From Anaerolineae bacterium (GTDB lineage: Bacteria; Chloroflexota; Anaerolineae; J036; Brachytrichaceae): DNA of 64,000 bases. Numbering within the stretch: position 1 is the stretch's first letter; every line of letters begins with the position of its first letter. Location: positions 1 through 64,000 of the forward strand of contig CANJQH010000003.1 in assembly GCA_947476335.1 (NCBI GenBank), read 5' to 3'. The notes beneath the pieces were generated by a model. It was not told where the DNA came from, ran no database searches, and saw only the letters and a program-made list of their open reading frames with translations. A program made the translations under genes and the position numbers. Below are positions 28,301 to 45,761 of the stretch, piece by piece.

Positions 28301-28328
28301 GGGAAGAGAGCAAAGAGTCAAAGTAAAG

Positions 28329-28439
28329 GTAACCGCGCAGACCCAAATCAGTATTTCCTGCCAAACATGCTATTCCTTCCCTTGAAAAGGAAGGAATAGC
28401 GTGTTTGGCGTTAGAAAAATGGCTGGCCTGAGTAGTTAC
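28329..28439. repeat. family A palindromic repeat, copy 8
   Basis: The left outer arm has drifted (GGTAACCGCGCAGACCC) while the right arm is intact. The inner stem CCAAACATGCTATTCC pairs with GGAATAGCGTGTTTGG, with one G-T pair. Confidence 0.9.
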
Positions 28440-28465
28440 GAGTAAAGAGTGATGATTACTACTCT

Positions 28466-29446
28466 TCACTCTGACTCGCTACCCTCTTCCGCCTCAATAT
28501 CCACCGTCAGCTCCGGCATCAGCTCGAACCGGCCGCGAAACTCGCTGAGCAGGCCAGAGACCTGTACATCGTCGCCGAGGCGCAATGTCTCCGAAAACGG
28601 TACGGCCTGCCACGCGCTGTCGAAGACGACGGCGTCAACCGTTTTGCCAGCTTTGTCGCGCAATTCCAATCGCATGCCGCCGGTGAACGGGCGAAAGTCC
28701 GTCACAGCGCCGCGCACAGTGACCCATGCACCGAGCAAATTCGCATCAAGCGCGGAGATCGGCCGCAGCTCAAACGGCAGCGGATCAGCGGGCGCAAGGT
28801 CCGCAGCCTCGGAAGGCAAGATCTGCCGCGTATCGCGATATTCGCCGGCGCCGCCGGTGACGCGCAGCCATTTGCCCGGCCGCAACGCTGCCGGATCGGG
28901 CAGCACAGTGCGCGGCAGCGGCACGTCGGCGGTGGCGGAGCCGTGGCGCAGCGTGACGATCACCAGTCGATCTGCAACGCGACGCACGCGGCGAATCTGA
29001 CCAATCGTCACAGCACGCTCACCATCACGCAGCGCATCAAGGCCGGCAAGTTCGATAGCGAGCGGCTCCGGCCGTTCGATCTGCAGCGCATCAGCGGCAC
29101 CGAGCACGAGCGACGCGTCTTCTTCACGAATGCGTAACGTACCTTCAAGCGCGACGCGATCGCCCGGCGCGGGTATGCGGTCGTTACGCTGCAACTCACG
29201 CACCGCGCGGCGATATGCCATCACACGAATGCGTCCATCGTCATCGGCGACAGTGAATGAAAGGAAATCATCGGCAAGCGTCGGATAGCCAACGACCACG
29301 CCCGCGACGCGCACATATGCGTAATTCATCGCAGGTTGAATGCGGTCGATGGCGGTAAGCGGGCGCGGCTGCGCTCGCACGGCGAAGATCAGCGCACAAA
29401 TGGCGCCGACGGCGAGAAATAAAAAAAGCCCCTTGAACAGTCGCAT
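28466..29446 (-). CDS. membrane-anchored protein with tandem OB-fold-like domains
   Basis: 326 residues. A single hydrophobic helix at residues 7-25 (L-F-L-F-L-A-V-G-A-I-C-A-L-I-F-A-V) anchors or exports it. The rest looks like three nucleic-acid-binding OB-type units, each with an R-V-x-G-x-V opening and a G-D-R/D-V-x-L/V-x-G close (for example P-G-D-R-V-A-L-E-G and L-G-D-D-V-Q-V-S-G). Such tandem OB domains occur in extracellular nucleases such as YhcR, but no nuclease domain is attached here. Function unknown. The last residues (E-A-E-E-G-S-E-S-E) run into a low-complexity spacer. Confidence 0.7.
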   Translation of the reverse strand: MRLFKGLFLFLAVGAICALIFAVRAQPRPLTAIDRIQPAMNYAYVRVAGVVVGYPTLADDFLSFTVADDDGRIRVMAYRRAVRELQRNDRIPAPGDRVALEGTLRIREEDASLVLGAADALQIERPEPLAIELAGLDALRDGERAVTIGQIRRVRRVADRLVIVTLRHGSATADVPLPRTVLPDPAALRPGKWLRVTGGAGEYRDTRQILPSEAADLAPADPLPFELRPISALDANLLGAWVTVRGAVTDFRPFTGGMRLELRDKAGKTVDAVVFDSAWQAVPFSETLRLGDDVQVSGLLSEFRGRFELMPELTVDIEAEEGSESE

Positions 29447-29549
29447 GAAAAACCTCTGCGGCCAAGGGGCAGACCGTGGAGGAGATTTTACATTTCAGAT
29501 TTCAGATTTGACGCACTCTTTACTCCGAAATCTCTAAATCTGAAATCTG

Positions 29550-29662
29550 GTAACTACTCAGGCCCAAATTAGTATTTCCCGCGCAACACGCTATTATTTC
29601 CCCCTTTGGGGTGGAGGAATAGCGTGTTGCACGTTGGAAAAATAGCTGGCCTGAGTAGTTAC
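29550..29662. repeat. family A palindromic repeat, copy 9
   Basis: A full copy with inner stem AACACGCTATT/AATAGCGTGTT. Both sides are AAATCTGAAAT words. Confidence 0.95.
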
Positions 29663-29675
29663 GAAATCTGAAATG

Positions 29676-29681
29676 TAAAAT
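29676..29681 (+). promoter_or_regulatory. candidate -10 box for the Trm112-like gene
   Basis: TAAAAT lies 7 nt before the ATG at 29689 and within the right arm of the 22-bp inverted repeat. Confidence 0.4.
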
Positions 29682-29688
29682 CTCTGCC

Positions 29689-29937
29689 ATGTCATCACCG
29701 ATCAGCTCCGAGCTTCTGGAGATCCTGCGCTGCCCTTTCTGCGTGAGCAGCGCCACACGCGTGCCGGGAGACGATCCGGGCCGTCTGCAGCTGTATAAAG
29801 ACTGCTGGCTCATCGAACCCGTGCATGGTCGCAAATACCCCATCAAGGACGGCATCCCGATCATGCTGATCGAAGAAGGCGAGAAGTGGATGAAGACCAA
29901 GCCGGAAGATCTGCCGGTGCCGCCGCCCGCGGAATAA
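29689..29937 (+). CDS. Trm112 family protein
   Basis: 82 residues. The zinc-ribbon-like Trm112p fold is recognised from L-L-E-I-L-R-C-P-F-C near the N-terminus and Y-P-I-K-D-G-I-P-I-M-L near residue 55, both hallmarks of the UPF0434/Trm112 family. One CxxC is clear and another Cys (K-D-C-W) lies mid-protein. Eukaryotic and archaeal Trm112 activates methyltransferases; in bacteria the role is mostly unproven. It stands alone between family A repeats. The last residues are proline-rich. Confidence 0.88.
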   Translation: MSSPISSELLEILRCPFCVSSATRVPGDDPGRLQLYKDCWLIEPVHGRKYPIKDGIPIMLIEEGEKWMKTKPEDLPVPPPAE

Positions 29938-29946
29938 TCTGAAATC

Positions 29947-30058
29947 GTAACTACTCAGGCCCAAATTAGTATTTCCCGCGCAACACGCTATTCCTTCCCC
30001 CGAAGGGGGAAGGAATAGCGTGTTGCGCGTTGGAAAACTGGCTGGCCTAAGTAGTTAC
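29947..30058. repeat. family A palindromic repeat, copy 10
   Basis: A full copy with inner stem AACACGCTATTCCTTCCCCC and its complement. It is followed after 9 bp by short copy 11. Confidence 0.95.
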
Positions 30059-30067
30059 CTGAAATCA

Positions 30068-30151
30068 GTAACGACTCGGGCGAGTCTATTTTCCCGTCGC
30101 GCAAGATGGGCGTGTTGCGTGAGCAATGTGGACTCAGGCCTGAGTCGTTGC
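30068..30151. repeat. family A palindromic repeat, short subtype, copy 11
   Basis: Outer arms GTAACGACTCGGGC and GCCTGAGTCGTTGC enclose a reduced core. The same subtype occurs at 45679, also beside a full copy. Confidence 0.85.
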
Positions 30152-45678: not shown

Positions 45679-45761
45679 GCAACGACTCGGGCCTAAGTCA
45701 GTATGTCCCGCGAAACACGCGCGTTTTTCGCATTGAAAAATTGGCCGGCCCGAGTCGTTGC
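45679..45761. repeat. family A palindromic repeat, short subtype, copy 15
   Basis: Arms GCAACGACTCGGGCC and GGCCCGAGTCGTTGC pair perfectly around a reduced core. It lies 8 bp after full copy 14, mirroring the copy 10/11 pair. Confidence 0.9.

Follow-up and report, generated by a model that had tools for sequence, protein, structure and literature searches.

A MITE copy very probably inserted into an older hairpin of short repeated words between two divergent bacterial genes

Introduction

In the window (the 64,000-nucleotide stretch of DNA analysed here), copy 9 of a short repeated element, family A, stands inside an inverted repeat in the spacer between two genes. This raises the question of which came first, the element or the outer repeat, and whether the two belong together. 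The original prediction offered two answers: that A elements enter existing spacer hairpins, or that element and hairpin jointly make a larger bipartite structure.

Judging from one neighbour protein with 45–50% identity to named genomes, the source species is probably a member of the Chloroflexota near Candidatus Roseilinea and Thermoflexales. Its assembly is a draft of 125 contigs. We used a 464-kb set (the window plus 20 stretches), a 1.26-Mb sample (37% of the genome), and 30 relatives, none of the same genus, with a best protein identity of 51%.

Results

The outer repeat at copy 9 and the restored spacer hairpin

The perfect 22-bp inverted repeat claimed around copy 9 is present, positions 29482-29503 (GAGATTTTACATTTCAGATTTC) and 29663-29684 (GAAATCTGAAATGTAAAATCTC) being exact reverse complements. 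An inverted-repeat finder lengthened the pair to 27 nt with 93% identity, and the pairing continues past the repeated words of the arms into TGGAGGAGATTTTACA with one mismatch. A perfect flank-to-flank run of at least 22 was found at 1 of 163 full A copies and in none of 326 dinucleotide shuffles or 600 swapped flank pairs; the outer pair at copy 9 is not a product of chance. The site is organised as follows.

28466..29446, minus strand: OB-fold protein gene (tRNA_anti-codon, PF01336), divergent left neighbour of the spacer
29482..29509, plus strand: 28-nt left arm of the spacer hairpin as it was before the insertion; the left outer repeat makes up the first 22 nt
29510..29535, plus strand: loop of the original hairpin, 26 nt
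29536..29549, plus strand: loop-side half of the right arm, an exact inverted repeat (I13) with 29496-29509
29542-29549, plus strand: first target-duplication copy, GAAATCTG, ending the loop-side half-arm
29550..29662, plus strand: family A copy 9, 113 nt, with ends GTAACTACTCAGGCC / GGCCTGAGTAGTTAC
29663..29670, plus strand: second 8-bp target-duplication copy, GAAATCTG, pairing with 29496-29503
29671..29684, plus strand: outer half of the interrupted right arm, pairing with 29482-29495
29689..29938, plus strand: Trm112p-like gene, 82 aa, divergent right neighbour of the spacer

The neighbours lie on the minus strand (left) and the plus strand (right), so the genes diverge. The Trm112p-like gene matched PF03966 with E 0.00023 and 21.5 bits, slightly below the 22-bit cut-off.

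When A and one GAAATCTG were removed, every one of the 28 nt of 29482-29509 paired with the segment made by joining 29536-29549 and 29671-29684, around a loop of 26 nt; this empty site is a computed one and not an allele from a sister strain. The visible 22 bp therefore consist of 14 bp of the interrupted arm (29482-29495 with 29671-29684) and 8 bp supplied by the duplication (29496-29503 with the second duplicate). Because the 28-bp right arm is contiguous only without A and one 8-bp duplicate, A entered a spacer hairpin that was already there, in agreement with the first of the two proposals. Folding with and without A spoke in part for the second: the filled site formed one three-way structure with z −13 (DNA) and −14 (RNA), so that a local effect may exist, and the A-less site reached z −11.2 (DNA).

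A weaker inverted design, claimed around copy 8 at 28301-28328 and 28466-28490, proved real as well, with arms of 30 nt, a score of 12, and a loop of 10. These arm figures hold after the removal of A and one duplicate, and the arm words differ from those at copy 9. The features around copy 8, and the next A copy to the right of copy 9, are listed here.

28302..28328, plus strand: left arm of the copy 8 hairpin, built of GAGTCA/GAGTAAA words; its last 8 nt are the duplication AAGTAAAG (28321-28328)
28329..28439, plus strand: family A copy 8, 111 nt
28321-28328 and 28440-28447, plus strand: copy 8 duplications, AAGTAAAG and GAGTAAAG, 7/8 alike
28461..28490, plus strand: right arm of the copy 8 hairpin, overlapping the 3' end of the minus-strand gene 28466-29446
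29947..30058, plus strand: next family A copy, 112 nt, with duplications CTGAAATC at 29939-29946 and 30059-30066

A second clean case was found at C9:21496-21607, where A interrupts the left arm of a palindrome whose arms are 35 nt long (score 29). The words here are GATAGTG, with a stretch that is not made of words, GCATGGGGTGATTTTAGAAG, on the outer side, and the duplication is GATAGTGA.

Family A as a MITE

Family A behaves like a MITE, a short non-autonomous palindromic element. Its terminal inverted repeats are 15 bp long (GTAACTACTCAGGCC / GGCCTGAGTAGTTAC), and these exact 15-mer ends occur 279 + 286 times in its own genome and 0 times in the 30 relatives. The 1.26-Mb sample yielded 260 distinct matches and 163 full copies, 104 of the latter exactly 112 nt long; 258 of the 260 matches were mostly intergenic according to gene calls from our own codon-usage script (1027 genes). 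Perfect 8-bp duplications flank 79 of the 163 full copies, with a palindromic, AT-rich consensus near SAWATWTS. Among the 65 near-full copies tested for duplications in the 464-kb set, 30 had perfect 8-bp duplications and 46 matched at 6/8 or better, the mean flank identity being 0.75 at duplication length 8 versus 0.23–0.31, near chance, at lengths 3–7 and 9–12.

A genome-wide profile search gave no matches to the PF03050, PF01609, and PF12762 transposases, and the sole match to PF00872 was a 57-position IS256-type remnant at C41:5378-5545, covering positions 313-369 of 379 (E 2.2e-11). The 1.26 Mb (37% of the genome) contained no recognisable longer element that had A ends and encoded a transposase. 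Within this sample, 13 pairs of A ends that lay up to 9 kb apart with 7/8 duplications exceeded 160 nt. Four were inspected as candidates for an autonomous partner and rejected: two are A copies with a nested family B element, and the others are clusters, or a neighbouring A and an A-like variant. The A pattern had no match in viral contigs, and Rfam had none in the window.

Family B (CTAAGTTCC...GGCGAATCTGCC...ACTTAG) is itself palindromic and is nested in A copies at C18:20645-20846 and C4:50537-50739. The A copies hosting it keep perfect 8-bp duplications, and 61 B-type inverted repeats occur in the 1.26 Mb. In the window, 30068-30151 and 45679-45761 are occupied by diverged elements of lesser length whose ends resemble GTAACGACTCGGG / GGCCTGAGTCGTTGC; they are probably related to family A.

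Flank pairing and target preference across A copies

A survey of the flanks, as the original prediction had asked for, showed outer pairing above chance at other A copies: a score of at least 11 was reached at 15 of 163 copies, by none of 326 shuffles, and by 8 of 600 swaps. Thirteen of these 15 are word hairpins (with the words CTGAAAT, GAGTAAA/GAGTCA, or GATAGTG), one involves neighbouring A-like DNA, and one is neither. In a smaller empty-site test, 8 of 54 sites were paired versus 0 of 270 shuffles, with a weak excess over swaps (8.7% of 300); the high swap rate arises because the flanks of different A copies share words. With A removed, 15 of the 163 sites (16 by mask count) lay within a non-MITE inverted repeat with a score of at least 12 (1.26 Mb). 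As a general design, the larger bipartite structure of A and hairpin was thus not borne out, since just 15 of 163 sampled sites are in such hairpins.

To judge where A inserts, we took expected rates from a target matrix and compared them with 102 well-marked insertions. Hairpin spans contained 14 of the 102 (7.6% expected, p = 0.037), a weak excess, and hairpin arms contained 10 (5.3% expected, p = 0.07), which is not significant. Insertions were more clearly enriched in AATCTGAAAT words (5/102 versus 0.9% expected, p = 0.002) and in period-7 arrays (10/102 versus 2.6% expected, p = 0.0003). Ten of 11 duplications in CTGAAAT arrays were in the register CAGATTTC, to which a matrix derived from insertion sites in neither arrays nor hairpins gave the highest weight (20.3; other registers ≤6.2). 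A very probably enters word spacers because the word CAGATTTC fits its target consensus and not because it needs a hairpin. The A sites are most simply read as reflecting sequence preference, perhaps with a slight additional attraction to arrays.

Word hairpins in gene spacers

The claim that AAATCTGAAAT words are used in many spacers was correct, with the qualification that they are unevenly spread (31 exact copies in 464 kb, 11 in the window). The doubled word AAATCTGAAATCTG had 76 + 68 matches in the genome and 0 in the 30 relatives. In the spacer hairpins, words of 7 or 13 nt are arrayed in inverted orientation around loops that are unrelated from one hairpin to the next; the older hairpin at copy 9 is a member of this genome-wide class. 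Intergenic period-7 arrays numbered 50 (325 per Mb); the corresponding densities were 20, 33, and 39 per Mb for periods 5, 6, and 8, 104–156 for periods 10–12 and 14, and 293 for period 13.

Among 69 intergenic long-loop inverted repeats, 48 fit five word classes and 21 do not. The left arm carried the same word strand in 47 of the 48 classed hairpins, by word lists that came from those very hairpins. The two commonest words were for that reason searched in the whole genome, with loci tallied by hand from the match lists: TTTCAGATT-N8..38-AATCTGAAA matched 42 times and GAGTCAGAG-N8..38-CTCTGACTC 27 times, each at 22 loci, whereas neither had any match in the opposite order. Word orientation tracked the spacer half clearly for some words (GATAGTGATA, 14/1 versus 1/8) and weakly or not at all for others (ATTTCAGATT, 33/22 versus 17/29, p = 0.028; AGAGTAAAGAG, p = 1; GACCGCCGAC, p = 0.15).

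Hairpins were found in tandem, divergent, and convergent spacers alike, and a simple terminator role was rejected on this ground. A role as mobile units was also considered and rejected, direct repeats at the ends of the 69 long-loop hairpins being no commoner than in swapped flanks. Only 7 of 2346 loop pairs shared a 13-mer, and with few shared loops and no end repeats, the hairpins are unlikely to derive from a single mobile hairpin by copying. At copy 9 and C9:21496, the palindromes extend outward into sequence that is not made of words, so the complementarity of the arms is not due solely to shared words. This suggests that one hairpin arm may be copied from the other. At C10:2951-3087, a hairpin has ATTTCAG repeats in the left arm and ACTGAAA in the right, which are different yet pairable words.

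In 654 kb from 17 relatives, we found 27 period-7 arrays (other periods, 0–7), spread over 7 genomes. G013 and G014 accounted for 20 of these arrays, and 10 of the 17 relatives had none within the stretches read. G013 and G014 contain inverted pairs of other words (e.g., ATGAGTAACGAGTAA), and G001 has one AT-rich case. Long heptamer arrays of other words are present at L151 and L165 (G014) and L169 (G013), and some change word in mid-array. Our literature search, mostly outside subscription journals, found no paper on polarised heptamer palindromes in Chloroflexota.

Discussion

Copy 9 is very probably a MITE that jumped into an older spacer hairpin with 28-bp arms, at a word matching its target; the hairpin itself was not required. 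The duplication, the restored palindrome, the target consensus, and the word hairpins support this reading directly. The element would have transposed into the right arm of the older palindromic spacer of two divergent genes, duplicating GAAATCTG, and we infer that the transposase that moved it is lost or unseen and that A and hairpin are not under selection as a joint structure. As to how arms grow, the likeliest course is that words lengthen by slippage within an arm, that the arms are copied or corrected against each other via hairpin intermediates, and that A inserts later, where a word fits its target. Slippage and arm copying do not explain the single word polarity.

That A and the outer hairpin have been selected as a single bipartite unit, such as a three-way structure with a regulatory or insulating role between the divergent genes, strikes us as very improbable. 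Although folding of the filled site is much stronger than that of shuffles, both as DNA and as RNA, and outer pairing with a score of at least 11 is kept at 15/163 copies versus 8/600 swaps, 148 of the 163 A sites are outside such hairpins. Moreover, among the 14 cases with a duplication of at least 4/8, A sits in the left arm in 8, the right arm in 2, and the loop in 4; words and arms vary from case to case, and the insertion breaks the arm exactly at the duplication. It is unlikely that A targets hairpins or cruciforms as such, like IS elements seeking REP palindromes. Insertion of IS elements into REPs has been described (PMC1525189), and the numbers of insertions in word-hairpin spans (14/102 versus 7.6%, p = 0.037) and period-7 arrays (10/102 versus 2.6%, p = 0.0003) point in this direction, but the arm excess is not significant, 88 of 102 insertions lie outside the spans, and the register in the CTGAAAT word follows a sequence preference learnt elsewhere.

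The order of events could also be reversed, with an outer pair younger than A whose words grew or were copied on both sides. Being repetitive, word arrays might lengthen once an insertion has taken place. However, the 28-nt left arm is continuous, the right match is continuous only without A and exactly one duplicate, and the palindromes at copy 9 and C9:21496 hold non-word sequence at their outer ends, which makes such a history extremely improbable. With insertion of A into an older hairpin as the preferred reading, the copy 9 observation is largely explained, and the less ordinary part is the spacer word hairpins.

Copy 9 is an ordinary MITE insertion, yet a cleanly dated one, in that the hairpin preceded A, and A insertions provide a natural marker for the order of events in spacers. 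A broader and rather doubtful possibility is that many gene spacers of this Chloroflexota lineage are renewed as polarised palindromes, with 7- or 13-nt words always running in the same direction away from genes whatever the strand, arm copied from arm, and words turning over between genera while the architecture stays. If this were true, the 3' untranslated end of an mRNA and the 5' untranslated start of the same or another mRNA would carry complementary arrays that could pair, and the published puzzle of intergenic heptamers would become a question of how palindromes arise in spacers and persist there. The word pairs lead to predictions that can be tested, namely copying between arms, turnover of words from strain to strain, and pairing of mRNA ends.

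Comparison with known systems

Elements of the IS66 family have 5'-GTAA ends and make 8-bp duplications. Family A likewise starts with GTAA and duplicates 8 bp, but unlike an IS66 setting its own genome has 0 matches to the PF03050 transposase, and assignment of A to this family is only a lead. MITEAba12 of Acinetobacter is 111–114 bp long, makes 9-bp duplications, and has an identified partner, ISAba12 (PMC6382973). Family A resembles it as a short (112) non-coding element that ends in inverted repeats and duplicates its AT-rich targets, and differs from it in its 8-bp duplications, its approximately 280 exact ends per strand, and the lack of a partner among the sequences searched. As a mobile element inside extragenic palindromes, A recalls the REP-inserting IS elements (PMC1525189), but its preference follows a short consensus and most of its insertions are outside palindromes.

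When the ORFs in 37% of the genome were scanned with a crude Y1 (RAYT) motif, a single Y1-type candidate emerged, and it was unconvincing. REPINs are inverted REP pairs with a variable middle. The word hairpins are similar to them as inverted pairs with fixed polarity and a variable loop, and unlike them in that REP arms are of conserved sequence and the word-hairpin arms are degenerate arrays. TAACTGA arrays of Beggiatoaceae and Cyanobacteria are direct repeats, with one inverted case reported (PMC4679880), and among the intergenic tandem repeats of prokaryotes heptamers are reported to be the most abundant, with unclear function (PMC6344855). The words described here are likewise lineage-specific intergenic 7-nt tandem arrays, but unlike TAACTGA, they commonly form inverted single-polarity pairs, and several of them occur together in one genome. 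The P6b stem of Nostoc trnL also has 7-nt motifs on both sides and grows or shrinks by motif units; it is a single RNA stem of a self-splicing intron (PMC4476775), whereas the word hairpins occupy many unrelated gene spacers. Overall, the word hairpins are closest to the known heptamer repeats and the Nostoc trnL P6b motifs.
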